A DNA stretch of 64,000 nucleotides from positions 1-64,000 of IMG/VR virus record IMGVR_UViG_3300047325_000130; one strand, written 5' to 3'. The position numbers and the translations under genes were made by a program. The notes beneath the pieces were generated by a model, which saw only the letters and a list, made by a program, of their open reading frames with translations, searched no databases and was not told the origin of the DNA. Of this stretch, positions 3,970 through 64,000 are shown one piece after another (position 1 is the first letter of the stretch; every line of letters begins with the position of its first letter). Source of the stretch: a virus.

Positions 3970-4460
3970 CACTTTTTCCTTTTTTCGGCCTTAATAAGTT
4001 TCTTTTTAGCCATCATTAAACTAACCGGGCCTGCTCTATCGCTAAACAATATACCGTTAAGATGGTCATATTCATGCATCCATACAGCCGCCACCTCATC
4101 TTCAAGATTATGATTTTCCCTCAAACCGTCCTGATTAATCCAATTAACATTTATCCATTTAGGCCTTGATATTTTTAAGAATAAACCAGGGAAACTCAAA
4201 CAGCCTTCTGGACTTGTACTAGTATCAACACTTGCCATTGATATTTCCGGATTAATGCACGTTATAAACTGTTCGGTACTATTAAGTACAAATAATCTTA
4301 AGTCAATGCCAATTTGTGGTGCAGCAAGACCAACTGCATTATGTTTTCTAACAAATTGATGCATCTCATCAATGATTGGTTTTAATTCATCTAGTTTATC
4401 TAAATCTACATATTCGCACACCTTACGTAGCAAAGGGTCTTTATTACCAATGAGATGCAT
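3969..4460 (-). CDS. def: peptide deformylase
   Basis: Metalloenzyme that removes the N-formyl group from nascent proteins at the ribosome exit. All three family motifs are present in the 163-residue protein: GLAAPQIG (44-51), EGCLS (85-89, with the metal-binding Cys) and HEYDH (129-133, two metal His and the catalytic Glu). Length fits bacterial and phage enzymes (135-170). The start overlaps the dnaJ stop as TAATG and the stop overlaps clpA as TGATG, so the three genes are translationally coupled. Phage deformylases are best known from marine myoviruses, where they are proposed to help maturation of viral or photosystem proteins. Confidence 0.95.
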   Translation of the reverse strand: MHLIGNKDPLLRKVCEYVDLDKLDELKPIIDEMHQFVRKHNAVGLAAPQIGIDLRLFVLNSTEQFITCINPEISMASVDTSTSPEGCLSFPGLFLKISRPKWINVNWINQDGLRENHNLEDEVAAVWMHEYDHLNGILFSDRAGPVSLMMAKKKLIKAEKRKK

Positions 4461-25532: not shown

Positions 25533-28500
25533 ATGGTAAAAATTATTTCTGATGATCCATCGTCGGTATTACAAGTTGAAGGTGCAGTTGAATTAGGTGC
25601 TGCGGCATCAGAAGGTATTCTATTTCCTGATGGTACACGACAAATAACAGCAGCTACCGGTTCCGGTGGCGGTGGTGGTGGCAAAAGCGGTACTGGTCCT
25701 ACTGGTCCAAGAGGTGCACCTGGTCCTACTGGTCCTGCCGGAGGTGGTGGTGGTGGCGGAAGTGGTACTGGTCCTACAGGCCCTACTGGTCCGGGAGGAT
25801 CATTGGGCAATGGCGAAGCTGTTTTAATTCAAACAAGCCCCATATTTAATGATAATAACAATGGTGCAATGAACATTGTTCTTACTCAAACACCAGTTGC
25901 AAACAACATAATTCTTGCTGTAGGTGTTTGTGCGGCTGGCGGGTATATAGATGCACCTACTACATTTACCCAAGTGTCACTCGCGGTTCAACCAAATGGC
26001 TTACAAGTATATGTATGGAAAAGACGTGTAGAAATTGGTGATACTACTAATATTGTAACCTTCGCAGCAAGTCATCAATCACAAGCACAAGCATTTGAAT
26101 ATTCGGGTGTAGGCAACTTTCAAGTTAGTATCGCATCAGGTGTTGATACCATCTCACAAGGAAATGTCGGAGTTGTTTTGCCCGGCTATATTGCTAACGT
26201 AAATCTACCAACAAGACTTGTAAGTATATTTGGACCAAATCTTGATAATGCACAACCACAATTATCAACCGGTTTGGAAGTTTTTACCAAACTTTATCTT
26301 ACACAACTATCCGGATTGTTTTCTATTGCACAAATTGAAAATTTAGATACCATTCCAGCTACTGTATCTTTCAATGGTGTAACATCTGGTGGTAATCTTA
26401 TTAATTCCGCTTACCTATGGAAGATGATAATTGATATCGAACCATATGGTACTTCTCTTACAAGTTTAGGCGATGTTGTTCTCCCCCCTAACCCGGCACC
26501 AGGAAACGTATTAGCATTTGGATCAGATCTCAATTGGCATAGTAAATCTTTATCACTAGAAGATGCTAACGATGTCGTAATAAATGATCTTTCAAATGGT
26601 CAAATACTTGCATGGGATGCATCTACAGGTGTGTGGCATAACGTGCCCCCGGTTGGTGCAACTGGTGCACAAGGTGTTACTGGACCAACAGGCGCACAAG
26701 GTACTGCCGGTCCAATGGGTACCCCGGGATCTGCAACTAATACTGGCGCGACCGGGCCGCAAGGTGTTCAAGGTATAGTAGGACCTACGGGACCTACCGG
26801 TGTAGCAGGTACAGCAGTTAATACAGGTGCAACTGGTCCAACTGGATATACTGGTCCTCAAGGTGTTACAGGTCCTCAAGGTGATGACGGACAACCAGGT
26901 ACCGCAGCAAATACAGGTGCAACAGGACCTACCGGACCACAAGGATTTAGCATAACTGGTCCTACAGGTACACCGGGTACGGCTGTTAATACAGGTTCTA
27001 CAGGTGCTATCGGACCTCAAGGGCCAACCGGTAATACTGGACCAACTGGTGCTGCCGGCGCCGCCGCTAACACAGGTTCTACTGGGCCAACCGGACCACA
27101 AGGAAATACTATAATTGGTCCAACTGGTGCACCCGGAACACCCGGTACAGCAGTTAATACAGGCGCAACTGGTCCAACTGGTGCTCCCGGTCAAAATGGA
27201 TCAACTGGACCACAAGGTATACCTGGTACGGCAACTAATACTGGTGCTCAAGGGCCTACTGGTCCTGCAGGCCAAAATGGTATAAATGGTCAGAATGGCG
27301 CTCAAGGGCCTACTGGGTTGCCTGGAACAGCAACTAATACTGGTGCTACAGGAGCAACCGGTCCGCAAGGATTAATTGGGCCAACCGGAGCTACAGGTAT
27401 TCCCGGTACGGCTGTTAATACAGGTGCTACTGGACCAACCGGACCGCTTGGCATACAAGGTAACACAGGACCTGCATCTACAGTAACTGGGCCAACTGGT
27501 ATTCAAGGTGCAACAGGACCTACAGGTACCCAAGGTATACCGGGATATGCAACTAATACCGGTGCGACTGGCCCTACAGGTCTGCAAGGCATTCAGGGAA
27601 ATACTGGACCAACTGGTATTCCCGGTATTGCAACTAATACTGGCGCAACTGGTCCAATAGGCAATACAGGTCCTACTGGTTATACTGGGCCTCTTGGGCC
27701 AACAGGCTTTATCGGAGAAACTGGTGATCGCGGACCAACTGGGTATACCGGTCCAACAGGTGTGCCGGGATCTGCAACTAATACTGGTGCTACCGGTCCT
27801 GTTGGTTCACAAGGTCCTACCGGTTATACCGGTGCCACTGGTGCAGGAGCTACCGGGCCGCAAGGAAATACTGGTCCGACTGGCGTTACAGGACCTCAAG
27901 GTATTGTTGGTGGTATAGGGCAAACCGGTGCAACTGGACCTCAAGGCGCAACTGGTGCAACGGGTTCAGCAGGAACAAATGGTGTTACTGGGCCAACTGG
28001 TGTAGCTGGTACGGCTGTTAATACAGGCGCTACTGGACCAATTGGACGTACCGGTGCTACCGGTGCTGCATCAATAGTAACAGGGCCAACAGGTGTTACA
28101 GGAGCTACTGGACCACAGGGCATTCAAGGTCCTGTTGGTATAGGTATTACTGGTGCGCAAGGATCTCAAGGTGCAACTGGTCCAACTGGTTATAATGGAT
28201 CAGATGGAGCCACAGGTCCTACAGGTGTCCCAGGATCTGCAACTAATACTGGTGCTACCGGGGCAACAGGTGCTACTGGCGCAGCAGGAACAAATGGATA
28301 TACTGGTCCAACTGGTGCGCAAGGTACTCCGGGATCTGCAACTAATACTGGGGCTACTGGCCCTACTGGAACGGCAGGTCAAACTGGAGCCACAGGTCCT
28401 ACAGGTGTCGGGGCTACTGGCGTAACGGGCCCGGCGGGATCACAAGGTACTGCTGGTGTAACAGGTGCAACTGGTCCAACGGGTGTTGCTGGTATTGCAA

Positions 28501-31500
28501 CTAATACCGGTGCAACTGGACCTCAAGGCGCAACTGGTGCAACGGGTTCAGCAGGAACAAATGGTGTTACTGGGCCAACTGGTGTAGCTGGTACGGCTGT
28601 TAATACAGGCGCTACTGGACCTCAAGGCGACATCGGACCTACTGGTACTCAAGGTCCAACTGGGGTCACCGGAGCAGCGTCGACAATAACTGGTCCAACT
28701 GGGGTCACCGGTCCGACAGGTAATGATGGATCTGCAACTAATACAGGTGCGACAGGTCCGCAAGGCGATATCGGGCCAACCGGAGTTACAGGTCCAACTG
28801 GTTCAGCAGGTACCGCAGCAAATACCGGTGCAACTGGGCCAACTGGTGTTACAGGTCCTACGGGAATCGGTGCTACAGGAGCAACTGGCGCACAAAGTAC
28901 AGTTACTGGTCCTACTGGTTATACAGGACCATCTGGGGTACAAGGTCCTACAGGACAAGCCGGAACATTGGGTGTCACGGGTCCTACTGGGTTGCCTGGT
29001 CAAAATGGTATCTTATTAAGTAATGTTCAAATACAAACATTAACAGGTGACGGATCAACTACTACATTTACAATGCCATTCACTCCAGCAAGTGCTAACA
29101 ATCTGTTAGTTGATATTGACGGCCTTGCACAAACTGCAAATGTTGCATTTACTACAAATGCTAATTCGATCACCTTTGCTTCTGCCCCGGCATTAAATTC
29201 AAACATTGCAATAACAAATCTAGTATTAGGCGATGCTGAATCTAATTTTATCGAAGTTCAAGCAAATAACGTTGTTCTTACAAATAACTTATCGGTATTA
29301 AATTTTAGGGATGGTTTCTCAGTAACCAATACAAATGGCGATATAATAATTGATTCATTGGGATCAGGTGGTATATTATATGAACCTGGTATTCCTCTTA
29401 TTAATGCAACATTAGGTACAATTTATAGTAGAACCGATGCTACACCTGGTGCGAGAGTATTTGTTGCTCAATCCGGCGGAACTGCTCCTTTATCTACACT
29501 ACAACAAACAGATGGAGCAGTTCATCTTTACTTGTTAAATGATTCAACTTCTACTGCGGTTGATATAGGAAGTAGTCCTGCTAACGGTACATATGTTAAC
29601 AATTACATACAACATTATCCATCTGTTGTAAAAGATGAAGATTATTGTACATATATGAATAATGGATATGTTGTATTACCATTCTCTAATCCTCCAGTTA
29701 ATGCAACTACCGGTGCATTCACATTTGAATTTGTTTTTAATGCAAATGTATTAGCAAATTCATTTATACTTAACAGTTCTCACACTGACACAACTGGAAC
29801 TGGGTTTAGACTGTATACGAGTGGTTCTTATATAGGTTTCAATCCTGTATTTACAGGCGCGCCGGGCTTCCAGCAACTTGGTGCAAATTATAACGTTAAT
29901 ACTACCTACCATCTGGCAATAACATATGACGGATCTTATTGCAAATTTTATCTAAATGGTATTATGATGCAAGAGGTTCCAATTACTGGTACATTAACCG
30001 GCGGCACCTCTGATATTGGGTTTGGTACTGGTGATACTGTCGGTGTTGGCAATTATCCATTTTATGCGTATGTTCAAAATTTAGCATTTTATAATGTTGC
30101 TTTAACAGCAACACAAGTTAGTAATCACGCGGAATCAGTGACTGAGGCTGGTACACAATGGCAGCCAGTATCATCAATTGATTTACAAATTAATGGTTCT
30201 GATCAAGGTCAAGTAACTGCAATTAATTTCATCGGTACATCTAATATATCAGTATTAGACGGTATTGCTAATGTATCTATAGGAAGCGGTGGTGCCGGTG
30301 CTGCTAATATAACTGTTTCGTCTAACGGAAATGTTCTCACGAATTCAGTTAAAACATTGGATTTCATAAATGGTTTTGATGTTACGACAGACGGCTCAGG
30401 CAATGTTTTTATAAACGCAACGTCGGTTGGAAATTATCAATCACCTGTTACATTAGATGTAAGTGCAAATAGTGGGCAGACTATAGGAAACGGTTTTACA
30501 ACGGTAGGTTTACCAAACGTTAATACTGATACTAATAATGGTTGGAACACTTCTACAAATCTATATACAATTCCGATAACTGGTACATATTTAATTATAT
30601 CTAAATTACGTTTTACAGATGGTGTAACAAGCGGTGTCAGTTATGGTCAAGGTGTAAACAATAATAACAATATAGATGGTTCTTGGTTTCAATGGTTTGA
30701 AACCAATCCGGAAAGAAACGGCAGTCTTAATGTAAGAGTTCTTTATTGCACTGCTGGCGAACAAATTAATATGTATGCATATTCAAATGATTCATTTGAA
30801 ATTTCAGCTGCTGAATTAAACATATTATTAATAGCTTCGTCAGCCGGACTATCAAACATAACAATTGAATCAAATAATAATGTTATTGGATACGCAAATA
30901 CATTTAATTTTGGAAGTGGGTTCAATGTAACAGTTTCAAATAATATTGTAAACGTTAATAGCATCGGCGGCAGTAGCATCGGCTGCGCCGGCGGTGGTAT
31001 TCTAGCAAGCAATAACTTTATCGTTAAACAGCCCAAGGTCGTACAGACCGCGAGCGCCCGTATACTTTCAAATACCCCTACTTGTACTTTTCCAGCAGCT
31101 ACCACTCCGGGTAACATGGTTGTTTGCTTGATTATGTGTGCTAGTGATACCGCTGTATGGAGTCCATATGGCTTTACGGTAGACTATTCAGGAATAGCTG
31201 CTGGTGCTAGTAGTGGCGGCTACTATACGGGTCTGCCGACCTACGCCCAAAATATGTATTTAGGTCACTCCTTTGTTACCAGTACAAATACTCTAATGAG
31301 TGTATCTTCAAATGGTGGGTTTAGTGACTGCGGTTTGATGATTATTGCAGAAGTTGAAAACGCCGTTGGGTTGGATTTCGATGTATTTGCATTTTCATCT
31401 ACTTCTGCTAACACGGCTAGTATAACGGCCGTTGCTAATTCCTATCAGGGCATCGGTGGCGATATTATCATTGGGGCAGAATGGGATACTGCTGTTGCTG

Positions 31501-34500
31501 GAGCTATTTCCACTACAGCTACCAATGCGGTTAATACTATCTACGACGTACCTTCAGGGTCATCCGGAAATCACTTTGGTGTGAGTGCGTATACTACGTT
31601 GCAAGCCGCACAATCTATTCCCATTACTGTAACCACGAACAGTAACGTAGAAGCGCCGTATATGGTAGTGGTAAAGCCTATTCCTGGTTATGGTACTTTA
31701 TCAATAACCCCTACCGGTTTATATAACAGACCTTCTTTGTCTAGTTTTACTTGGTTAAATCAAGGAACGGCTACCGCTGTTGATCATAGCGGAGGTCCGC
31801 TATCTATTCTTGCCCCCTCCGTAGCAGGTCCAAGCTCCAACTACCGCCTATTAATACAACCTATACCCGGCACAATTTTTAGCTTGATTGCAGAAATTGG
31901 GAGTGAGTCTCCCAATATAAGCTATAACGTTAATGGTATTTATATTTATGACTCTAATTCAGGTAAACTCGCGGGCTTAGAATATATTAGAAATGCTGGC
32001 GAGTTTACTATAGAGTATTTAAATAGTGCTACAAGTTATAACTCAGCACCAGCTTCTTTGCTATACAGCAACCAGGAATCATTTTGGTACAAAATTAACT
32101 GTGATGGTACCAATTTGACTTATTGGGTTAGTTCTGATGGTTGGGATTGGTTATTGCTGTATACTTCTTCTATGACAGCTTTTCTACCCGCTATTACGCA
32201 CGTTGGTTTTGGTGGTGATCCTTTTGCTAGCTCTAGTACCTTTGCGCAAGCAAACTATAAACTAAAAAATTGGTCGTTAGCTGCTACGGCAGATCAACCT
32301 AATTATACCCCACCTGTTCCTGGAATTGGCAGCCCGACGAAACTAAATATTCTTCAAAGCCTTGACTTTACTACGGCTACTAGCAATCGCGTACAGGATA
32401 GCGTTCAAAATAACAACGCCTTCATTGTGAACTGGAGTAATAGTGCGCAAACCAGTCTAGGTTACACCACTGATGGTTCAAGTATGTATATTGACCCTGG
32501 TCCGGTCGTAATGGGGCGTTATTTCTTTACAGTAGCTATTCGGTTTAAGACAACTAGCACGACTACCGGTTCCTCCTATTACCAGGATCCCTCGCTTTAT
32601 AACCTCGCCTTGAATGGCTCGGGCTATGATGGTGGGATTACAATTCATAATGGTTATATTGCACACTGGGCTTCACCGGGGGGTGCAGAAGTTAACACTG
32701 ATTTTAGTGCTGTATCTAATATTCTCGTAAATGACGGTAATTTTCATACGGTGGTTTGGATTTGGGATGGCACCAACATCCGGTTGTACATAGATGGAGT
32801 TAATGCAGGGGTTGATTATACTGGAGGTATTACTCTTTGTTATGGCAATCGTCCTGGCTCTGAAGTCGGTTGCAATCCGTGGATGGGCCGTGTTAATCAA
32901 AACGATTTTTCTACTGCAACTGCTGGCGGATTAGCGGCTACTTTTGCTCAGTTAAGAATTTATGATCATGCTTTAAGCCCGGCTGATATCACTAAACTTA
33001 ATCTAACGGTGCCTGCCAATCAACAAAGCTATCTTCCTTCGGCTAATAATGGTAGTGCTGGGATTATTTATGAAGGTACTTCTTATACCACTATTGCAGC
33101 AGGAAATAATGTTACGATTACCCCAAGTGGTGGTACTCTGACGATTAGTTCTACCGGAAGCGGTGGCGGCGGCGGTGGCGGTGGTGGCGGATCAGGTGGT
33201 ATTAGTACTTACTCTGCAGGCTCAAGTGTATCTAAAAGTATTACGGCTGCTACTTCATGGAATCCCGTACCCGATTTAGCTATTACAATTCAGGGTACAG
33301 GAGTTATTCAAAACTTTTTACTGTCATATTCTATTGAGCATAATGGTTCACACGCTAATTTCTTTGGCGTAAGTTTAGATGGTACTGTGGTATACCCACA
33401 AGAATTTGCAAGTAGCGAATATACATTTGTTTCAAATCTTACTTCTGACAGCATGTATGCTTTTGCTCGTAATTCGTTGCCTATTCAAATTCCTGCAGAT
33501 AACGCATCGCATACCGTTAAAATTATAACACAGGTTGCAGATACTGTTTCAAACTACACAATTTTTGAACATTTTATGTCGATGATCTCCTTATTACCAT
33601 CGACAGGAAGTACTTCAGGTACCCCTGTTGTATTTGGAGTTTATCAATCCACAGGTCAAAATATTCCTGCCCAAACCTTTACCAAAGTACTATTGGATAC
33701 AAAGGAATTTGACAACACTAGCTCTTTTAATCTAGCTAATTCAAGATTTCAGCCTAATGTAGCAGGCTATTACCAAATAAATGGTGCGGTAAATTACCCT
33801 TCCTCTGATTCAAATACTCTAGCTACTATCTATAAAAATGGCTCTGAATTTAAGCGAGGTAGCCAAGCTAATGGAACTTATGGTCAGATTGTATCTGCTT
33901 TAGTTTATCTAAATGGCTCAACTGACTACTTGGAACTTTGGACCTACAATGGCAGTGGTGATATTGCACAACCAACGGCCGAACAAACCTATTTTAATGG
34001 GGCATTGCAGGTATCTGGCTCCTCCATTACGTATGGTAATAGTTCAGTAACTTCTATCGTAGCGGGCAACAATACAGAACTATCTTTAACTAATGGTGCT
34101 TTAACAATTAACAGCACCGGATCCGAATCGTTGTTGATTACAAACGGAACAACAAATATTGTTAATCCTGTTACATTAGAATTTACTGGTGCATCTATAC
34201 TTACAGAAGGCATGTTTCCGAGCACTGTAGCTCCGTCATATGTTCAATCAAATACAGGCGGCGGTGATAGCATATCCTCAGGATCAGCTGTAACCATTGG
34301 CAATATTATTGTTGTATCATTTTTAAGTTTAGGTAATATTACTGGTGTAACGGTATCAGATAATCTTGGCAGCGTTTATACATCAGTCGCACAAATTTCA
34401 GAGCAGTCTAATAATTTTAATGTATTTGTCGGAAAAGTTGCTGCATCTGGCATTATAACAATCAGTGTAGCAGGCGGTCCAAATAATTACGATAGAATAG

Positions 34501-37500
34501 CGTTTATGGAGGTGGCAGGTGCCACCTCCATAGTTAATGCTACAGCATCACTATATGGCAACAGTTCGCCGGAATCATTATCAATTACAACTACACAAGA
34601 AAATTGTTTCCTTGTAGCATTGGTAGGCGGCTATCATAATAATAGCAGCTTTTCATTTAATTCACCATTTATATTAACAACTGAATCAAATGGTAGTGAT
34701 GGAAATGGTATAGGTTACGCATCTGCAAATGCTGCAGGAACATATACTCTAACTGCAAACATAGTCGGCAATTCAGATAACTGGCCAATAATAATTATTG
34801 CACTTGAAAATCCTACAACTGTTTCGGCTGTAATTAATATACCCGGTGTGCAGTATAATGGCAATCTTATAACTTCTATCACAAATGGATCTGGTATAGA
34901 TTTATCTATATCAAATAGCAATCTTACCATTAATACAACAAGTTCATTTAACGTAAATGTTAGTTCTTTAACAACTACAGTCAACGACTTAGTAATCGGT
35001 AACGGTATAGAGGCAAACATTGTAGAAACCGTTGCATCATCGCCTATTATTATTCAATCAAACGGTGGGTCAAACACAACATTAACCTTTGCATCATCGC
35101 CTACTATTAGTAACTATGCACTATTCATTGTTTTCTGGGTCCCTGGGGTAGCAGCTAGCGCTCCTGCACCGTCTGCAGGATTAACATTAATTGGTACTGC
35201 TACTATACCAGGAGGACAAGCAAATGTGTATGGCGGAGTAATAACTTCTAATTCAACATCAGCATTATCTGTAAATTACAACGGGTCTGGTTCATGTTTT
35301 GAAATAGAGAATGTAAGAAATGTTACAACTCCAACTGCTGATAATTGGACACAAACAGGCAGTTCGCCGGCGTACACATTAAGTTTTACCATTCCTACAA
35401 ATACACAAAATTCAATAGTGTTCTTTATCGGCGAACTTTATAATGGTAGTCAAGCAGGCAATACTCCTACTATAACAAATCTTCTTCCAATCGGAAGCAC
35501 AATTGATTATAATATATATAACAATTCAAACGAATGCTATCAACAAGGACATACTCCGGTATTAACGAATACCGAAAATGTTATTATTAGTATGATAGAA
35601 AATAATGATATTATGGGTGCAAGCCGGCCGGGAATTATTTACTTTATGGTTGAAGGTGTCACAGTATCAAAAACTGATCTAGAAATTTCTGTACCTTATA
35701 TGACTGCAGAGCAATCAGGTAATTTGTTAGGGTCATTCACAACATTAAACTTAGGAAATCAGTTAACTGGTGCTGTAAATGGTAATGTATTAACGGTTTC
35801 CGGATCTAATCTAACATTAACCGATGGTGTTTTTGATATTGTTAATCCGTCAATACTAACTGTTAAAAACTTAAATCTATCATCTACCTTTATACCAAAA
35901 ACAATTTCAATCGTGCAATCTGCAGGATTGCCATATGGTAGCAGTTCAAGCGGAAGTGTTACATTAGGAACTATTCCTACCGAAAATAATTTGGTTATTA
36001 TGTCGTATATGGGATCTGGTGCGTTTAGTGGATTCTTAGGTACATTACAAGTATCTGGTAGTGATTACGGAATATATACCTGGATAGCCGACGGCGTAAC
36101 AAACCCAACAGCATATGTATCCGGTAGCAATAATGGCGTTATAGCTATAGTAGAAATAGCAAATGCTGGTATAATATCTACTACATCTGGTACAAATACC
36201 AGCTTAGCAGGCGGATCATTGGGTTATGAAAATAATTTCACATTACCTACAACTACATTAGCAAATTCGTTTGTATTATGGTTAGACGGTTTTGCAGAAC
36301 CCGGATTCAATGAAAATGCAACTTCTAATTTATCAAATTCAACTTTGCTTTCTGTAAACGGGCCAGGTAATTATACGGTATTCTCAGCAGGATGTGGATA
36401 TACTAATACAGCCGGTAGTACTGTATTAACACTTTCAACCCAACAAAATGTGACAGGTAATCCGTTTGCTGCAATCGTAATTCAACCTGCATATACTACA
36501 TCATCTGATGTATCAATCGAACCAAATATACCAATTTTACAAAGTGGTAATGTTATTGGTAATGCAACGACATTTGGTACAGGGTACGGTCTTACTGCTA
36601 ATGTGACAAATGGTATTGCTACATTTGCAACCGATCTTCCGACATTAATGGTAACTGACGGCGTTTCAATTCTACCAGATATAACAACTATAAAAGTACA
36701 AAATTTAAATTTAGAGAGTATTGGTACATTACCAGAGATTGTTCAATTAACTGGTGCATCAACCGGAATGTTAACACTTCCATCGACTGCGACAATAGGT
36801 AATTACTTAGTAATTATTATCGCATCTGGTGTTGGCTCAAGTATGCCATCTGTTCCGGCAGCATATCAAAATTTAACGGAATTTGATAATAATTCTCAGG
36901 GAGTATCAATTGCAATATTTGGTGGTATAATTACAGATGATAATACATCAGTTGATTTAGGATCAAATTCTGATTACAGTGCTTCGATATACGAAATTTC
37001 TAATGTAAGTGCAGTTTATGCAACTTCTGGTAACCCGCTATATTCAAACGGCGGATATTCGTTCCCATCTTCAAATTTTACTATGCCCGGTATAGCAATA
37101 TTTGCAACACATATTGCCGGCGGAACGTCGGTATCAAACATAATACCGACCGGCGCAATATCGGATGGATCATGGTTTAATTCGCACTCTAATCAGGAGG
37201 CTTTTCATACCGGAGGAATTACTGGCGGAATTGTAACATTAGGTTATACCGGCAATAACCCAGAAAATATTAATGCGTATGCGCAAATTTCAATTTTTGG
37301 TACATCTGGTGGCGGAGTTCAATTAACTGCACCAAGCTTGTCATTTAATAGTAATGTTTTTCAAAATGTAACAAATATTAACTTTGTAAGTCCCGTTGCG
37401 AATACAGTAGTTATGGAAGGCGGTAATGTAACTGTTAACTTGCCGGCTCCTTTGGCATTTGCTGGGAAATATTCGTCTGACCTTGGGCCAAATGGAGCAA

Positions 37501-38846
37501 ACACTCGAGCAATTGGCACAACCTACACAAACACTACAAGTTCAGCCATTTTTGTTTCTGTTATAGTTAACAATGGTGGTACTATCGGCACCGGCGCCCA
37601 AGTTTCAATAAACGGTGTCGCAATACCGATGCTATGGCAAAGCGAAATAAATTCACCAACATATCGCGGCTCTTTGGTATTTCTGGTTGATCCAAACGAT
37701 GAATATAAAGTTGATGTCGCAGCTGGTTATCCTTCGGGCGTAGTTGTCGAGTCTTGGAGCGAACGCCCTATCTCCAACGGCCTAACCCAGGGCGGTGCAA
37801 TTGAACTTGTTAGCGTGCAAAATATAACCAACGAAGGATCGATTATATTCCCAATTGAGCCCGGATATGATTATAAAATAGTTGGGCATGGTGTAAGTGC
37901 AAGTACAACAAATGTGTTGGCCGTACAAATGGGCAATGGCTCGCCGGTAACATGGGATTCTTCATCTAATTATTACTGGCAAAATACTTCAGCAGGAGGA
38001 TCAGACGGTGGTGGCCCTACCGGAAGTATTGTAATTTCTGGTGCATTTGCTTCTGGGGCCAGTGCTGCTATCTCATTAGACTTCACTGGTTTAAACACCA
38101 ATGCTACTGGCGGATATGACGTTATTATGGATGGTATCTTTTCATTCCAGAGTCATAAAATCACAGGGTATTATAACTGTTCGGTAGGTAGCACGTCAGC
38201 CATACAACTTTATGTATCTGCTGGCACAATCAGCGGCAACTTCTACCTCTATCGCCGCTCGCTTACAAATGTTGTAGCTGGTAATAATTCACCTTACACA
38301 ATGCCTTTATTGGGCAATAATTTCACAATCGCCAATCAACCAGCAGGTGCGACCGCAGCAAACAGTTCGACCGGAATTTCGATGTTTACCCCAACGAACG
38401 GTAGGGCGCTGCTTGCACTTTTAGACAATACTGCGGTTGGTGCGACGGCTACTATTGAGTTAGGAATTAATTTTCAAAATGCCAATAATGATGCAATCAT
38501 GGGACTATATTTAATTGACAGCGACAACAAAGTAATAATTTTTGGTCCAGATAGTAACCCGACTGTAAATTCTTTAGGTCTTGTGGCATATTGGGATGGG
38601 TATTCAAATTATGCTGGAACCATTTCCTTCAGTGCGGGCTCTTACACCGCGCCAACTTTTTTAAAAATTGTGTATAATGGAACTTCGCTAAGTTTTTATG
38701 CCGGTAATGATCTTAACGCAATGCTTCCATTACATACGGAGTCGTCTACCGCGTATCTCGGTACAATTATCGGTTGTGGTATTTTTCAAGAGGCTGAAAG
38801 CGGACCAATTGCCGGTACTGCATTTCATTATAACCATACAAGTTAA
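25533..38846 (+). CDS. giant collagen-like multidomain tail fibre/adhesin, 4437 residues
   Basis: One frame of 13.3 kb. Approximate order: short N-terminal peptide with [16 protein letters not shown] (shared with 13205); Gly-rich linkers; first adhesin domain (95-290); collagen-like Gly-Pro-Thr/Gly-Ala-Thr region (372-1159); LamG-like domain (1322-1532); C1q-like domain (1632-1769); a second LamG-type pair (2052-2492); a poly-Gly hinge; another C1q-like domain (2696-2829); four diverged adhesin modules of about 230 residues (2869-3922); and a tip domain (3969-4437). No Cys-rich or enzymatic motif. It probably trimerises through the collagen-like shaft and displays several carbohydrate-binding heads. 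Segments encoding about 1815-2865 and the tip look compositionally different from the rest. Confidence 0.85.
27924..28039 (+). repeat. 116-bp exact direct repeat in the collagen-like region, copy 1
   Basis: Identical to 28506-28621, 582 bases further on (194 codons, in frame). This suggests expansion of the shaft by recombination between repeats. Confidence 0.92.
28506..28621 (+). repeat. 116-bp exact direct repeat in the collagen-like region, copy 2
   Basis: Second copy of the repeat at 27924-28039. Recombination between the copies would shorten the shaft by 194 residues while keeping the frame. Confidence 0.92.
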
Positions 38847-39649: not shown

Positions 39650-40192
39650 ATGCATCAAAATTATTGTATTTCATCTGCTATACAACAAGTTGAGAGAACT
39701 GAACTAAATCAGCTCTTAATTAGCGGAAATTGTCAACAATATCAATGGGCTACATTCCTAAATAATCAAAGAGCTTGTCATGCTGCAATTGAAGCAAAAA
39801 AGGTAATAACCCAAGCCGAATTAATGAGAACAGGGCGGTTAAGTCAAGATTTAAGTAAGATGGGATATAACTGCAAAAATCCAAAATTGCCATTAAGTTA
39901 TATTACCCAAGCATTTGTAAATTATGTATCTAGTATTTCGGTTTCAAAACTATGGGCACATATATACTTAAGATATTTAATTGATATCGGAACATCGTCC
40001 CTTATAAAAGTTTCTATTAATTTACCATCCGTATCGTTAGACTTTGACAATAGTGATTTATGTCTTAATTATATAAGAGAACATATGATAGATATAGATG
40101 AAGAAGAGATGAATTCGGCATTAAATTGGTTATTAACTGGATACGATCAATTATATTGGTTAATTAAAAATCCATCGGAAATAACAACATGA
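39650..40192 (+). CDS. heme-oxygenase-like helical protein
   Basis: A 180-residue all-helical protein. The pattern WATFLNNQRACHAAIE, then RLSQDLSKMG, then KLWAHIYLRYLIDIG resembles the heme-oxygenase-like fold, where the third element is normally H-x-Y-x-R-Y-L-G-D-L-S-G-G. The GG motif is replaced by GTSS, so heme cleavage may be lost; I cannot confirm a proximal His ligand. Possible roles are heme binding or another HO-fold (e.g. thiaminase/PqqC-like) activity. Its stop overlaps the next start as ATGA. Confidence 0.5.
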   Translation: MHQNYCISSAIQQVERTELNQLLISGNCQQYQWATFLNNQRACHAAIEAKKVITQAELMRTGRLSQDLSKMGYNCKNPKLPLSYITQAFVNYVSSISVSKLWAHIYLRYLIDIGTSSLIKVSINLPSVSLDFDNSDLCLNYIREHMIDIDEEEMNSALNWLLTGYDQLYWLIKNPSEITT

Positions 40193-40833
40193 CCAGATTT
40201 TTGACTGACGAAGAACAGATAAGAGCTTGGATAAATGTAAATTGTAATGATAGAGCGCAACAAATTCGTCGCGATGATATTGAAATAAAAGATGACTGTG
40301 TCAGGGTCAACTCGACATTAAATATTTCGAATGACAACCTAAAAGAAATACTGGTGCAATTTTCTTTTTCAAAAAATTTTTACTGCTATAATACCAAACT
40401 TACTACATTGGTTGGTTCTCCGATAGTAGTACAAGGAAATTTTGAATGTAGCGATACTGCTATAACATCGTTAAAAGGACCAGAACTAGTATATGGTAAC
40501 TTTATTTGCAAAGGAACAAAAATAACAAATTTTATTGGATGTCCTAATGTTACTGGTTATATAGATGCATATAATAACAAATTAACATCTATAGATGGAC
40601 TTCCATCAAATTTTGATAATATTTCTATTTCATATGATCCAAATCTGGCAGTATTAAAATTTATAAAATTAAACATATCCGAAGTATATCTCATTGTTGG
40701 CAGCATACTTCTTAGTAAAAGTTCTACAATTATTAATAAATATTTACAAAATTATGAGCCACTTAAAAAAAGAATATTAGCTTGTCAAAAAGAACTAATA
40801 GATAATGGCTTTATAGGCAATGCCTTATGGTAA
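40189..40833 (+). CDS. leucine-rich-repeat-like protein 1
   Basis: A 214-residue protein. About six degenerate repeats of the type C-x-N-x-K-L-T-S-L-x-G-x-P-x-x-V-x-G-x-F form a short solenoid. They are followed by the C-terminal block LKFIKLN ... CQKELIDNGFIGNALW that ends all members of the array. It has a unique 60-residue N-terminus and is the most diverged member, so probably the oldest copy. The start of the next gene lies inside its last codons (ATGGTAA). Confidence 0.75.
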   Translation: MTRFLTDEEQIRAWINVNCNDRAQQIRRDDIEIKDDCVRVNSTLNISNDNLKEILVQFSFSKNFYCYNTKLTTLVGSPIVVQGNFECSDTAITSLKGPELVYGNFICKGTKITNFIGCPNVTGYIDAYNNKLTSIDGLPSNFDNISISYDPNLAVLKFIKLNISEVYLIVGSILLSKSSTIINKYLQNYEPLKKRILACQKELIDNGFIGNALW

Positions 40834-41339
40834 AAATAGAAGAGTATTTTCAAATAGGTGATTATACAATCAAAGATGGATTGATTTCCACTGGTGATAA
40901 TGTCAAATTAATTAAAAAAGTTAAAAAATTACCAGTTCAATTCGGTCATGTTGGTGGTAGTTTTAGTTGTTATAACAATCAACTCACTTCTTTAGTTGGA
41001 TGTCCTGAATCAGTTGGTGATTATTTTAGTTGTGATAAAAATCAACTCATTTCTTTAGAAGGAGCTCCTAAATCAGTTAGTGGTGGTTTTTATTGTGGTA
41101 ATAATAAACTCACTTCTTTAGAAGGTGCACCTAAAGAAGTTGGTGGTTATTTTTATTGTGATTGGACAGAAAATCTACCTTTACTAAGATTGGTAAGATA
41201 TAAAAAAATAGAAACATACAATAATCAAGTGAATACAATTATAAGAAAATATTCCAATCATACTCCATTAAAAGAAGCCATTTTATTATGTCAGAAAGAA
41301 CTGATTGATAACGGCTTTGTAGGAAATGCAGCGTGGTAG
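40827..41339 (+). CDS. leucine-rich-repeat-like protein 2
   Basis: A 170-residue member with four repeats (pattern NNQLTSLVGCPESVGD, period about 22 residues). The N-terminal leader EEYFQIGDYTIKDGLIST is shared with members 3-5, and the tail LLRLVRYKKIETYNNQVNTI to QKELIDNGFVGNAAW is conserved. The repeats place Leu, Pro and Cys at fixed positions, as in a beta-solenoid or LRR-type binding surface. No signal peptide or enzyme domain. Confidence 0.75.
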   Translation: MVKIEEYFQIGDYTIKDGLISTGDNVKLIKKVKKLPVQFGHVGGSFSCYNNQLTSLVGCPESVGDYFSCDKNQLISLEGAPKSVSGGFYCGNNKLTSLEGAPKEVGGYFYCDWTENLPLLRLVRYKKIETYNNQVNTIIRKYSNHTPLKEAILLCQKELIDNGFVGNAAW

Positions 41340-42037
41340 ATATAAAAGAATATTTTGAAATAAAAAATTACACTATAAAAGATGGATTGATTTCCGTCGA
41401 TGGTAATGTTTCATTAATCAAGAAAGTAAAAAAACTACCTTTTAAATTTGGTCAAATTGGTGGTTATTTTTATTGTTCTGAAAATCAACTAACTTCGTTA
41501 GTTGGGTGTCCAAATGAAGTTGGTGGTGATTTTTATTGTAATAATAATAAACTTACTTCTTTAGTTGAGAGTCCAAATAAAGTTGGAGGTAATTTTGATT
41601 GTTACAATAATAAACTTATGTCTTTAGCCGGAGCTCCAAAATCCGTTGGAGGTTATTTTGATTGTGCTAATAATCAACTCACCTCTTTAGAGGGAGCTCC
41701 GCAATCAGTTGGCGGTTATTTTTATTGTGCTTATAATCAACTCACTTCTTTAGAAGGAGCTCCAAATTCAGTTGGTATTTATTTTGATTGTCGTTATAAT
41801 AAACTCACTTCTTTAGAAGGAGCTCCTAAAGAAGTTGGTGGTAGTTTTTATCTTTCCTGGTCAAAAGATTTACCTTTACTAAGATTGGTAAGATATAAAA
41901 AAGTAGAAACATATAATAATGATCAAGTAAATGATATTATAAACAAATATTCTAATCATAAGCCATTAAAAGAAGCCATCATTGGTTGTCAGAAAGAACT
42001 AATAGATAATGGCTTTATAGGTAATGCAGCATGGTAG
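41333..42037 (+). CDS. leucine-rich-repeat-like protein 3
   Basis: A 234-residue copy with about seven repeats; the same leader and tail as its neighbours. Repeat number differs from member 2 by insertion of whole 66-base units, so the genes change length by unit gain or loss. The next gene starts inside the terminal GCATGGTAG, giving a seven-base overlap. Confidence 0.75.
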   Translation: MVDIKEYFEIKNYTIKDGLISVDGNVSLIKKVKKLPFKFGQIGGYFYCSENQLTSLVGCPNEVGGDFYCNNNKLTSLVESPNKVGGNFDCYNNKLMSLAGAPKSVGGYFDCANNQLTSLEGAPQSVGGYFYCAYNQLTSLEGAPNSVGIYFDCRYNKLTSLEGAPKEVGGSFYLSWSKDLPLLRLVRYKKVETYNNDQVNDIINKYSNHKPLKEAIIGCQKELIDNGFIGNAAW

Positions 42038-42729
42038 ATATAAAAGAATATTTTAGAATAGATGATTATACAATCAAAGATGGATTAATTTCTACCAATG
42101 ATGATGTTGAATTAATCAAGAAAGTAAAAGAATTACCAGTTCAATTCGGTTATGTTGGCGGTTATTTTTATTGTTATGATAATCAACTCACTTCTTTAGA
42201 AGGATCTCCGGAATCCGTTGGTGACGATTTTTATTGTTCTGAAAATCAACTAACTTCGTTAGTTGGGTGTCCAAATGAAGTTGGCGGCGGTTTTGTTTGT
42301 CGTGATAATCAACTCACTTCTTTGGAAGGATCTCCACAATCGGTAGGTAATGGTTTTTACTGTCATAATAATCAACTCACTTCTTTAGACGGAGCTCCTG
42401 AATCCGTTGACGGTGATTTTGATTGTCGTAATAATCTACTTACTTCTTTAGCTGGATCTCCGCAATCCGTTGGTGGTAGTTTTAATTGTTCTAATAATAA
42501 ACTCACCTCTTTAGAAGGAGCTCCAAAATTCGTTGGCGGTTATTTTTATTGTGGTTGGTCAGAAAATTTACCATTACTAAGATTAGTAAGATATAAAAAA
42601 GTACAAACATATAGTCGAGTAAATGAAATTATAAGAAAATATTCTTATCATAAGCCATTAAAAGAAGCTATATTATTATGTCAGAAAGAACTAATTGATA
42701 ATGGCTTTGTAGGAAACGCAGCATGGTAG
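42031..42729 (+). CDS. leucine-rich-repeat-like protein 4
   Basis: A 232-residue copy with about seven repeats. Very similar in DNA to member 3 over leader, several units (NQLTSLVGCPNEVGGG) and tail. Hypervariable residues fall between the conserved Leu and Pro positions, as expected for a ligand-binding face under diversification; this is inference. Confidence 0.75.
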   Translation: MVDIKEYFRIDDYTIKDGLISTNDDVELIKKVKELPVQFGYVGGYFYCYDNQLTSLEGSPESVGDDFYCSENQLTSLVGCPNEVGGGFVCRDNQLTSLEGSPQSVGNGFYCHNNQLTSLDGAPESVDGDFDCRNNLLTSLAGSPQSVGGSFNCSNNKLTSLEGAPKFVGGYFYCGWSENLPLLRLVRYKKVQTYSRVNEIIRKYSYHKPLKEAILLCQKELIDNGFVGNAAW

Positions 42730-48352: not shown

Positions 48353-49738
48353 TTATACTTGATTAGATCTGGCTCTAACTTCTGCAAAGGTGTGGTCGAC
48401 AAGCAATTCGCCGTTCTTCCAAACCGGCTGCAAGATATCTGCTGCACCGTTCATATCTTCGATCTTGACAGTCTCATACTTATCGTTTTTGCGGATTAAT
48501 GCAAGACGACCCTTTTTGCTGGTCTTACCAGGATCAGTAATCGGGTTCTTAAAGATATCCCGCCATTCACCTTCAATACAAATTGCACTTGCCTTCTGAG
48601 CAAATCTTAGAGTATCTCGATTTACCATTTGGGTAAGTCCGCCGCCCATACCGAGAGCAAGGTTATCGGTAGAGTAGCCCGCATCGTTTAGGTTTTTTAA
48701 AATTACCGGAATGCTTTCTGCTGTAATACCATCACCTTGGATACAACGAACATGGTTAAGTACTTTGTAACCTTTCTTGTTTACAACAGATCCAAACTTG
48801 GCATCTAGTTTGGTAATAACCTCTGTCGGGACAGTATTTGGATCGCCGGAGTCTGGACGTACAACAAGAAGTGCGCCGCTTTCAACAATCTCGGTCTTCA
48901 AACGCTCGCCCCAAATATAATCAATAGCATTCCAAAGGTCGTATGTATCAGACACACATGCTAGCAATGCACCAGGTTTTGCGAATTGATTTAGCATGTT
49001 TTTAAATGCATCAAATTCGCCGTTTCGGCCATAGCTACTAATTGTGCTATGTTCGGAAGCTGGGATAGAAAATCCAGGCATCTCTCCGCCATAGAAGTTC
49101 ATTGCGTACAACAAACCTTCAACAGTATCAGATCCCATGAAGTTTACTAAATGTGCTGCACCACCGATTCCTGCAGACTCGCTACTGGAAACACCACGAG
49201 CACTAAAATCGTGAAGTTTGAAGGCAATCTGCCCTTCTGGATCATCACTGGTTAGCTGCAAACTTTTCATTATCGCTTGTTTGCAAGTCCAACTATTGGT
49301 TGCAACCGTAGTTGGAAACCATACTGCACGCAAAATTGCAGTTTCCATAAAGCTCACTAACCAAGCAAATCCTGGTTCGGTATTAGTGATTTGTACTAAT
49401 ACATTATGACCCGGTATAATAGTACCTTCGGGTACTGCTGTAATAAGCAATGGTAGCTTACCGTTAAGACGTACTGCAATATCCATCCAGCCATCGTAGT
49501 CGAAAATACCCGGACCCATATGACTATCGACAATAAGTTTTGCTTCTTCAACGTCGGCGACCGTAATCGGTGCCATACCTTTTAAAAACATCTGCAGGCC
49601 AAAGAATACAGTGCGGTCCCATTTGCCGCCTCGACTTTCAATATAAGCGGATAGATATTCGGACTTGTTAGGGTACTGCTTGTGATGAGAATATTTGTAA
49701 GAATCTGTCTTCAGAATTGTGTTCTTTAAATTATACAT
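48353..49738 (-). CDS. nadV: nicotinamide phosphoribosyltransferase (NadV/NAMPT)
   Basis: 461 residues. Converts nicotinamide plus PRPP to NMN. Type II phosphoribosyltransferase features are clear: an N-terminal NTILKTDSYKYSHHKQYP, YIESRGGKWDRTVFFG, the HDFSARGVSSSESAGIGGAAH core with the GVSSSESA substrate loop, SIPASEHST, VRPDSGDP binding the PRPP phosphates, and LGMGGGLTQ. Length matches NAMPT (460-490). It follows nadM by 40 bases in the same direction, making a complete two-step route from nicotinamide to NAD+. Confidence 0.96.
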   Translation of the reverse strand: MYNLKNTILKTDSYKYSHHKQYPNKSEYLSAYIESRGGKWDRTVFFGLQMFLKGMAPITVADVEEAKLIVDSHMGPGIFDYDGWMDIAVRLNGKLPLLITAVPEGTIIPGHNVLVQITNTEPGFAWLVSFMETAILRAVWFPTTVATNSWTCKQAIMKSLQLTSDDPEGQIAFKLHDFSARGVSSSESAGIGGAAHLVNFMGSDTVEGLLYAMNFYGGEMPGFSIPASEHSTISSYGRNGEFDAFKNMLNQFAKPGALLACVSDTYDLWNAIDYIWGERLKTEIVESGALLVVRPDSGDPNTVPTEVITKLDAKFGSVVNKKGYKVLNHVRCIQGDGITAESIPVILKNLNDAGYSTDNLALGMGGGLTQMVNRDTLRFAQKASAICIEGEWRDIFKNPITDPGKTSKKGRLALIRKNDKYETVKIEDMNGAADILQPVWKNGELLVDHTFAEVRARSNQV

Positions 49739-49778
49739 TGCAAAAACTCCTTTTGCGGGTTTATCTTAAGGTCTATCC

Positions 49779-50876
49779 TTAAGAATTTATAAAATATTTG
49801 ATTATATCCATATGGTCTTCGAACATCATATCTCGACGAACTTTATGGATAGGAAACCATTTGGCCTTTTCAGCATCATCGCCACCTTTTACGCGAACTA
49901 AGTTTACTTCGTTTGGCAGCTTGATATGAAATGCATGAGTAATAGTTCTACCTCTGGCACTTCGATTTGGCGAATCAAACACGCATTGATTTACAATGCT
50001 TCCACGTAAAACTGGTTCGGGTAATTTAATTGCGGTTTCTTCTCGCAATTCACGCATTGCTGCATCAATAATCCATTCATCCTTATTGATAAATCCTCCG
50101 GGAAGGGCATAAAGTCCTCTGCCCGGAACAGCACGCCGCTTGATAAGTAGAATATGTCCAGACTGTTCTACCAAACAGTCAACAGTTACAAATGTTGGCG
50201 GATAAGGAGAATTAATCCACTGCCGATGATAATCGGTAATGTGTTCATACTCTTCTACAATATATTTGTATCCCTCAGTCTTCATAAACTTTGTGAGAAA
50301 TTCCTTAACACCGGTTGGGATAAGTTTTTGGCAATCCTTATCACCTACATTATGTCCATCAGCGTCTTTTAACCAAAGGTCGCCAATATTGGAGAAATAT
50401 GCCTGACGCATCGGCGTACTGCTGAGTCCGGTTGTATCAGGGACTTCGATATTATCTCCCCATTGCGGGAAGAGTTTTAGGTAATAGCTAGTATGGTCTT
50501 TGCTATGTCCAATAAGAGAAATTTTTGGAAAATTAATCTCATTTTCGCGTTGGTTGTAGATTTTATTGACCGTTTCGTCTACCACTCTTTGAACGGAAGT
50601 AATCCATCCGGTATCATCATATGCGGTATCCTCAACTACTGCAAAATGCACACGATCAAGCTCATCACTACAAAGAGATGATTCAATCATCTTAATTCGT
50701 TCGATTGTGGAAAAAGGATTACGATGGCCTCGTGGCATATTTGCCGAGCCGATGATAATCAATAAATTGTCTGCTTTTTCTAGTGCTCGATGTACAACGC
50801 CGAGATGACCTAAGTGAAAAATTTGAAATCTGCCCATAAACACAGCCAGATCGATAATTTTAACTCGTTTGCTCAT
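49779..50876 (-). CDS. nadM: bifunctional NMN adenylyltransferase/Nudix hydrolase
   Basis: 365 residues. The N-terminal NMNAT domain has MGRFQIFHLGH (HxGH at 21-24), GSANMPRGHRNPF and the GLSSTPMR motif. It makes NAD+ from NMN and ATP. The C-terminal domain has the Nudix box GGFINKDE-x7-RELREE, which in homologues hydrolyses ADP-ribose. Together with nadV it can rebuild NAD+ from nicotinamide, and the Nudix half could remove ADP-ribose made by NAD-depleting defences. A TATAAATA box lies about 50 bases upstream on the minus strand. Confidence 0.95.
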   Translation of the reverse strand: MSKRVKIIDLAVFMGRFQIFHLGHLGVVHRALEKADNLLIIIGSANMPRGHRNPFSTIERIKMIESSLCSDELDRVHFAVVEDTAYDDTGWITSVQRVVDETVNKIYNQRENEINFPKISLIGHSKDHTSYYLKLFPQWGDNIEVPDTTGLSSTPMRQAYFSNIGDLWLKDADGHNVGDKDCQKLIPTGVKEFLTKFMKTEGYKYIVEEYEHITDYHRQWINSPYPPTFVTVDCLVEQSGHILLIKRRAVPGRGLYALPGGFINKDEWIIDAAMRELREETAIKLPEPVLRGSIVNQCVFDSPNRSARGRTITHAFHIKLPNEVNLVRVKGGDDAEKAKWFPIHKVRRDMMFEDHMDIIKYFINS

Positions 50877-62802: not shown

Positions 62803-63070
62803 ACAGTTGTCTCCCAAGTTCTTTCCATTTTTAGGAGCAATAATTTTACTTGTATTTTCAATTAAATGGACTACAAATTGGACACAAGATGAACTTGGTT
62901 GGGTCTGCAGCGGTCTCAAAATGATTTTTCAGCATTTAACAGGTACTCCGTTAATTAACGATACAGTGCATATTTCATTCGTTGTGGCATTGCTCATAAA
63001 TGTATTTACATGCTTTAGTATGTTGGTATTTGATTTTTGGATTTGGGTTGTACATGCAATTTTTGGATAA
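62792..63070 (+). CDS. two-helix membrane protein
   Basis: 92 residues from the ATG at 62792 with ACGGAG upstream; it overlaps the previous gene by 11 bases. Helices FFPFLGAIILLVFSIKW and HISFVVALLINVFTCFSMLV plus an aromatic end. A holin-like size and topology, but nothing specific. Followed by a hairpin. Confidence 0.6.
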   Translation: MRFKQLSPKFFPFLGAIILLVFSIKWTTNWTQDELGWVCSGLKMIFQHLTGTPLINDTVHISFVVALLINVFTCFSMLVFDFWIWVVHAIFG

Positions 63071-63080
63071 AATATCCAAA
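63062..63080 (+). terminator. hairpin at the end of the ligase operon
   Basis: TTTGGATA/TATCCAAA with loop AAA, overlapping the stop codon at 63070. It isolates the following late-promoter RNA from read-through. Confidence 0.55.
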
Positions 63081-63086
63081 TAAATA
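63079..63086 (+). promoter_or_regulatory. T4-like late promoter box (AATAAATA) of the structured RNA
   Basis: AATAAATA, with predicted start about six to eight bases downstream, i.e. at about 63092-63094, where the closing stem of the RNA candidate begins. Confidence 0.5.
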
Positions 63087-63090
63087 TTAT

Positions 63091-63218
63091 TGTGGTAAGG
63101 AAAGTCTACCTACCGGTTGGCGCCGACAGAGTAGGTAGAGCAGGGATTGCAACTCTGTAAACGGAGAATGGGAAAACGGAGCGGACTTAACGTAGTTTGA
63201 TACCTCACCGGCCACATG
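63091..63218 (+). ncRNA. compact structured RNA candidate, RNase P-like core signals
   Basis: Noncoding 128-base stretch, G+C-richer than its surroundings. Stems: closing TGTGG (63091-63095)/CCACA (63212-63216); AAGTCT (63102-63107)/GGACTT (63183-63188); TACCTAC (63107-63113)/GTAGGTA (63131-63137), which competes for 63107; and CTCTG (63153-63157)/CGGAG (63162-63166). AGGAAAGTC followed at the far end by CGGACTTAACG, with a GTAAAC loop between, is reminiscent of the bacterial RNase P P4 helix and the CR-IV/CR-V regions. It is far shorter than known bacterial RNase P RNAs and would lack the specificity domain. Bounded by late-type boxes on both sides. Alternatives: an unrelated phage regulatory RNA. 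Confidence 0.55.
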
Positions 63219-63221
63219 TTA

Positions 63222-63229
63222 AATAAATA
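63222..63229 (+). promoter_or_regulatory. T4-like late promoter box (AATAAATA)
   Basis: AATAAATA directly after the RNA candidate and 20 bases before the ATG at 63250; identical word to the one before the RNA. Confidence 0.5.
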
Positions 63230-63249: not shown

Positions 63250-64000
63250 ATGAGAATTAGTGACTTAACAGAAAATTTAGTAGAATCGTATAGTTTGAAT
63301 AGTTCTCGTATAGAACATCCGGAAGACCTGGTCTTAGAAGCTGCTGGATCAGGTGCAATCCAAGCGGTTAGAGCATTAGAGTACGCAGTATCAAATCCAG
63401 ATTCAATAACTTTTAAACCAGACGGCAAGCCTGCTATTATTTGGGGGAAAGACGAGAACGGATTTACAATGGGCGACAAATATATGTTCAAAAAACAAAC
63501 AATGCCCAGGTCAGTAACTGAAATCGACGCTATACTATTAAGTCGCCGCGGTGGCGGCCGAGAAGACTTAATTGATATGTATAAAAGACTTTGGCCAATA
63601 TTTGAACAATCACTTAAACCAGAATTTAAAGGTTTTGTGATGGGAGATTTAATGTGGAATAAAACTCCCACCATTGTCAAATCAAATTATGAATTTAAAC
63701 CAAATACGGTAACATATACTGTAGAAGTTAATTCTGAATTAGGGCAAGAAATTAGTAAGAGCATTGCTGGTATTGTCGCTCATAGTTATTTTTCTAGTAT
63801 AGGCGGCACTGGATCACATATTCTTGATTTTAACCAATTGAATACAAATGGTAAATTATTGATAATTAGTGATCATTTTACCAGCTCACCAAACATAGTA
63901 AGACCTATTAAGCTAACTCAATTGGAAGATTTTGTATTGCAACAAAGACCTTTAATCAATGCATTCTTTCAATCCGGTATACAAGATCTCGGCGGAATAT
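63250..64000 (+). CDS. DUF6267-like nucleotidyltransferase-fold protein, partial
   Basis: 250 codons to the window edge. MRISDLTENLVE then EHPEDLVLEAAGSGAIQAVR, ITFKPDGKPAIIWGKDENG and GFVMGDLMW. I know this pattern from large virion-associated proteins of cyanophage-like myoviruses (DUF6267); the K-P-D-G-K-P segment looks like motif I of covalent nucleotidyltransferases (K-x-D-G). Function unproven. Late promoter-like box upstream. The 3' end is outside the window. Confidence 0.7.
   Translation, partial: MRISDLTENLVESYSLNSSRIEHPEDLVLEAAGSGAIQAVRALEYAVSNPDSITFKPDGKPAIIWGKDENGFTMGDKYMFKKQTMPRSVTEIDAILLSRRGGGREDLIDMYKRLWPIFEQSLKPEFKGFVMGDLMWNKTPTIVKSNYEFKPNTVTYTVEVNSELGQEISKSIAGIVAHSYFSSIGGTGSHILDFNQLNTNGKLLIISDHFTSSPNIVRPIKLTQLEDFVLQQRPLINAFFQSGIQDLGGI

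Follow-up and report, generated by a model that had tools for sequence, protein, structure and literature searches.

The window analyzed here is a 64,000-nucleotide stretch (positions 1 to 64,000) of the IMG/VR record IMGVR_UViG_3300047325_000130, a linear virus sequence of 103,636 bases from an uncultured large phage. The record is probably a piece of a larger jumbo phage; for one conserved protein, the best named matches are PA5oct-like Pseudomonas phages (~286 kb), at 31% identity. Near the right end of the window, a gap separates the stop codon of an upstream ORF at 63070 from the start of a DUF6267 ORF at 63250. According to the ORF listing, this gap contains only frames of 33 to 42 codons and no sizeable reading frame, in line with the initial annotation, which had described 63079–63229 as noncoding and as holding a compact, late-expressed structured RNA with RNase P-like elements. 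All of the motifs named in that annotation are present at 63079–63229, in the order claimed. The features of the gap and of the gene to its right are as follows.

63079–63086, + strand: putative T4-type late promoter (left), AATAAATA, taken from the sequence as −13 to −6
63092–63216, + strand: predicted structured RNA of ~125 nt, based on a promoter-defined 5′ end, fold, closure, and GC content
63091–63096, + strand: 5′ strand of the predicted terminal helix P1, UGUGGU (pairing probability 0.79–1.00)
63098–63106, + strand: CR-I-like word AGGAAAGTC, from sequence
63105–63139, + strand: predicted main hairpin UCUACCUAC...GUAGGUAGA (outer nine pairs, probability 0.87–1.00)
63140–63150, + strand: predicted small hairpin GCA/UGC (pairing probability 0.71–0.76)
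63153–63166, + strand: predicted hairpin CUCUG-UAAA-CGGAG (pairing probability 0.52–0.54)
63182–63192, + strand: CR-V-like word CGGACTTAACG, from sequence (real CR-V is CCCGGCUUA)
63182–63199, + strand: predicted hairpin CGGACU/AGUUUG, built from the supposed CR-V bases (pairing probability 0.74–0.77)
63211–63216, + strand: 3′ strand of P1, GCCACA (pairing probability 0.79–1.00)
63222–63229, + strand: second putative late promoter, AATAAATA, which would serve the DUF6267 gene (sequence and motif enrichment)
63250–64000 (to 64350 in the record), + strand: DUF6267 gene of 366 codons (Pfam PF19782, E = 5.6e-19)

The RNA interval stands out by its composition. Its GC content is 0.52, compared with a mean of 0.31 (sd 0.06) for the 4821 noncoding 125-nt windows of the 103.6-kb record, and it ranks at the top of all of these. 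Further GC-rich noncoding gaps occur in the record and may be missed genes.

Late promoters of T4 carry TATAAATA at −13 to −6 (PMC1524935). Two copies of AATAAATA, both with A instead of T as the first base, are found at 63079–63086 and 63222–63229, and the flanking late-promoter boxes that had been noted on each side of the RNA are thus in place. Reading the left box as −13 to −6 predicts +1 at G63092. Upstream of genes in this record, ATAAATA ranks first among 21 permutations (12 regions, the mean being 6.6), and it also leads, strongly, in phages whose DNA ligase is related (10 compared with 0.6). Counted over the whole window regardless of position, the late-box motif is not enriched, so it is the placement of the motif alone that is informative. 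Being TATAAATA-like and belonging to a motif enriched before genes, the two boxes are, judged by sequence, putative T4-type late promoters. Across the genome and some 170 related loci, this site was the only one found with a promoter–RNA–promoter layout. At record position 90141 (L118:10141), another gap has a AATAAATATA late-type box with a hairpin (GTTGTCACACAAAGGTGACA) directly after it.

A transcript spanning 63092–63216 would begin with GUGGU and end with GCCACA, and its ends would therefore pair. G63092 is the first G of the terminal helix GUGGU/GCCAC, the 3′ strand of which stops six bases short of the right promoter. The RNA is predicted to form a closed multibranch loop comprising P1, the long hairpin at 63105–63139, with an inner stem GUUG/CGAC (pairing probability 0.84–0.86), and three smaller hairpins. 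Two complementary segment pairs had been singled out in the initial annotation. The closing pair TGTGG (63091–63095) and CCACA (63212–63216) is predicted to be paired; AAGTCT (63102–63107) and GGACTT (63183–63188) could pair in principle but do so with a probability of 0.00, and forcing them together costs about 7 kcal/mol.

The folding energy of the promoter-defined 125-mer is −38.9 kcal/mol, compared with −32.3 ± 3.6 kcal/mol for 1000 dinucleotide shuffles (p = 0.037), which by itself is a modest gain. The closure of the ends was equaled in only 0.3% of 1000 such shuffles (p = 0.003), and closure and energy were jointly matched in none of 1000. The fold is strand specific (z of −2.2 on the plus and −0.6 on the minus strand), folding of the minus strand being no better than that of shuffles. 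Sliding windows placed over the gap irrespective of the promoter gave no folding outliers, and other gaps scored better; the structural support hence depends on the promoter-defined ends. Closure of P1 also varies with the end of the transcript, dropping to 0.07–0.12 once 150 DUF6267 coding bases are included. Because closure weakens in long transcripts, the predicted fold requires a separate or processed RNA.

Searches for relatives were negative at several levels. Scanning the window and the remainder of the record against Rfam gave nothing above threshold, the only subthreshold match in the window being RF02914 at 12.4 bits (cutoff 35.6), and the RNA had no blastn match among phage records and plasmids. 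Exact-match pattern scans of viral and bacterial contigs yielded nothing or, where the matches were read, hits in coding frames. A single-sequence covariance model (R1), sensitive to close relatives only, recovered just the RNA itself when run over ~1.8 Mb of loci plus 46 different whole records, PA5oct among them. Upstream of DUF6267 genes in relatives, the preceding gene abuts or overlaps, and the RNA is absent; it is likewise absent from the DNA ligase and DNA polymerase relatives, which show partial synteny. In locus L109, a GC-rich run that follows a late box was rejected as an RNA since it lies within an ORF, and the 12-mer repeated at 102875 is of the kind expected by chance. With no homologue by BLAST, patterns, or covariance model, in collections that may lack close kin of this record, the RNA is an orphan here.

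The protein encoded to the right of the RNA shows the ligase-like motifs KxDG, GDLL, EGYV, and KLV(D/N)R in an alignment. Motifs common to DUF6267 proteins are KxDG, G(Y/F)xxxD, EG(Y/F)(V/I), and KLV(D/N)R or KFVDR, a set typical of covalent nucleotidyltransferases, DNA and RNA ligases among them. The predicted structural model (pLDDT 85) has DNA/RNA ligases as its top PDB matches, with E values of only 0.1–0.2, giving a weak lead toward a ligase-type covalent nucleotidyltransferase. Longer DUF6267 relatives (~625 aa) have an additional N-terminal domain whose GSTG...SGDLDLAVD motif resembles that of polymerase-beta-type nucleotidyltransferases.

Several other loci in the record and its relatives deserve mention. 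The DNA ligase gene is intact in this window; in relatives it is split at one shared site (L113:5350-6330, L114:4000-5050, and L115:6870-7920) by breaks of ~0.9–1.0 kb, each with a free-standing Vsr-type homing endonuclease-like ORF and none with an Rfam intron match, a layout suggestive of a split intein in a fractured gene. At 1207–3972 on the minus strand, a Clp-type AAA+ ATPase has its second P-loop (GPTGSGK/T) interrupted by ~165 residues; this insert, which starts with C and ends with HHN, is from its sequence apparently a mini-intein. An intein is also present in the family B DNA polymerase (70781–74956 of the record). At 48353–50876 on the minus strand, a nicotinamide phosphoribosyltransferase gene adjoins a bifunctional NMN adenylyltransferase/Nudix gene, forming an NAD salvage pair; such pairs have been reported to counteract phage defenses that deplete NAD. 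A TnpB/OrfB IS605-type gene (L118:16777-17943, record 96777–97946; Pfam OrfB_IS605, Cas12f1-like TNB) has a GC-rich palindromic right end and shows no similarity to the RNA studied here. Four tandem paralogous genes at 40189–42729 encode repeat proteins of the L-x-x-L-x-G-x-P-x-x-V type with a weak LRR match, and a 4437-codon gene at 25533–38846 has long collagen-like GPTG repeats, its product probably being a tail fiber or virion surface protein.

The proposal that the locus encodes an extremely reduced RNase P RNA, which would process tRNAs, draws on the occurrence of AGGAAAGTC, GTAAAC (63157–63162), and CGGACTTAACG in the proper order. The exact triad AGGAAAGTC..GTAAAC..GG(N)CTTA was found in none of 500 Markov-simulated 64-kb windows, a figure that applies to motifs selected after reading; a looser GGAAAGTC triad occurred in 1.8% of the simulated windows and AGGAAAGTC alone in 25%. 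The CR-I and CR-V comparisons, AAGGAAAGUCU against GAGGAAAGUCC and GAGCGGACUUA against ACCCGGCUUA, likewise concern motifs picked post hoc. None of the Rfam RNase P covariance models matched up to E = 10 under permissive filters, whereas five real RNase P RNAs used as positive controls, four of them from records deposited as phages, reached 252–334 bits. Helix P4 of RNase P carries a bulged U that binds a catalytic metal (PMC11143913). In real P4, AAG-U-CC stands against GGCUU with the U bulged, but here AAGUCU/GGACUU would be fully paired, with A opposite U; moreover, the supposed P4 overlaps the main hairpin with its 5′ half and forms a separate hairpin with its 3′ half. A single base between P1 (to 63096) and AGGAAAGTC (from 63098) leaves no room for P2, P3, and the P2/P4 pseudoknot. 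Gapped alignments to the five RNase P RNAs, which take in the conserved regions of the specificity domain as well, equaled those of shuffles (p = 0.10–0.29, or 0.17–0.87 with CR-I masked). ARAGORN detected no tRNA or tmRNA genes in the 103.6-kb record, which may be incomplete, and the need for RNase P that had been suggested from tRNA processing is thereby removed. Taken as a whole, an RNase P identity is very improbable. A full RNase P RNA match of 252 bits occurs in Microcystis phage MaAM05 (MW495066.1, L230:1462-1861), whose 274-kb record was submitted as a complete phage genome; the match has a peptidoglycan transglycosylase gene close by and is either phage borne or host sequence misfiled.

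Three further readings were weighed. The interval could be a foreign or decayed GC-rich fragment with no functional RNA, its fold and motif resemblance having arisen by chance; conservation was not found in related phages, the energy p value is only 0.037, and GC content by itself raises folding stability. Against this, the ends are sealed precisely where the promoter predicts the start (closure p of 0.003, both measures 0/1000), and two promoter-like sites tightly enclose the interval; we consider a chance fragment doubtful, if readily conceivable. Alternatively, the fold could serve the DUF6267 message as a structured 5′ leader, carried by left-promoter transcripts and affecting their stability or translation, while the right promoter yields a leader-free message, as in the arrangement of T4 gene e. 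The shared strand, the lack of a terminator in between, and a start codon 34 nt beyond the fold are all compatible with such a leader, and T4 provides a precedent for a late promoter inside or after an inhibitory structure (PMC3014915). Yet predictions of start-region accessibility show no consistent difference between transcripts (0.20–0.46 for read-through and promoter-1, 0.26–0.59 for promoter-2), the fold is self-closed with the start region outside it, and in DUF6267 relatives a leader of this kind is absent, the preceding gene abutting or overlapping; a leader role thus seems unlikely. As for a short protein across the interval, the minus strand does offer an open frame, of 42 codons at 63087–63215, but by a rough estimate a 43-codon open frame in one of the six frames has about an even chance at this composition, and the neighboring genes and promoter-like sites are on the plus strand, which makes a coding function hardly credible.

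We consider 63092–63216 to be probably a late-transcribed structured RNA, a small phage gene; that it is a separate noncoding RNA gene of ~125 nt is a more specific reading, for and against which we see the balance as even. Of the initial proposal, a compact structured RNA expressed late is supported by the promoter geometry, the sealed ends, the fold, and the GC content, and the RNase P identity is not supported. We computed the sequence features, the promoter-like boxes and their enrichment, the fold and closure relative to shuffles, the GC outlier, and the absence of a known-family match, and we infer transcription, 3′ processing, action in trans, and a protein partner. In the proposed scheme, a late sigma factor/RNA polymerase would initiate at G63092 from the left AATAAATA, and the transcript ends would be sealed by P1 (5–6 pairs) enclosing four hairpins. 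No intrinsic terminator-like site was found between the RNA and DUF6267, and for this reason release by cleavage is proposed: transcription would probably continue toward DUF6267, with the RNA freed by cleavage in the AU-rich tail. The right promoter would drive the DUF6267 message independently. The RNA would most likely act in trans, as a stable molecule to which a protein of the phage or its host would bind late in infection. A functional link to the DUF6267 protein is speculation, and a new class of late structural RNA working with that protein, for example as guide, substrate, or scaffold, is a long shot.

To our knowledge, few noncoding RNAs have been described in large T4-type phages. 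A discrete gene for a late RNA, its ends defined by promoters, would offer a clean way to test the role of such RNAs. It would not demonstrate an RNase P encoded by a phage. Being an orphan for which no homologue was found, it is for now a candidate only. The phi29 pRNA is compact, with sealed ends and a self-complementary hairpin loop. The RNA described here is similarly compact and sealed and has a hairpin with a self-complementary loop (GCGC), but it has no Rfam match at the gathering threshold or to E = 10, and the phage is not a phi29-like podovirus. With bacterial RNase P RNA (RF00010/RF00011), it shares CR-I-, CR-IV-, and CR-V-like short words in the same order; at one third of the length, however, it lacks the bulged-U P4, P2/P3, the P2–P4 pseudoknot, and a covariance match. 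RNAC and RNAD of T4 are small phage RNAs whose role is unexplained (PMC3014915), and our candidate resembles them as a small noncoding RNA of a large T4-type phage. RNAC and RNAD come from a tRNA region, whereas the present record has no tRNA genes, and the candidate has its own late-type promoter and shows no Rfam similarity. The leader of T4 gene e, with its internal late promoters (PMC3014915), offers a parallel in combining RNA structure and late promoters beside a start codon; here, in contrast, the structure is already closed ahead of the second promoter, with the start region outside it.
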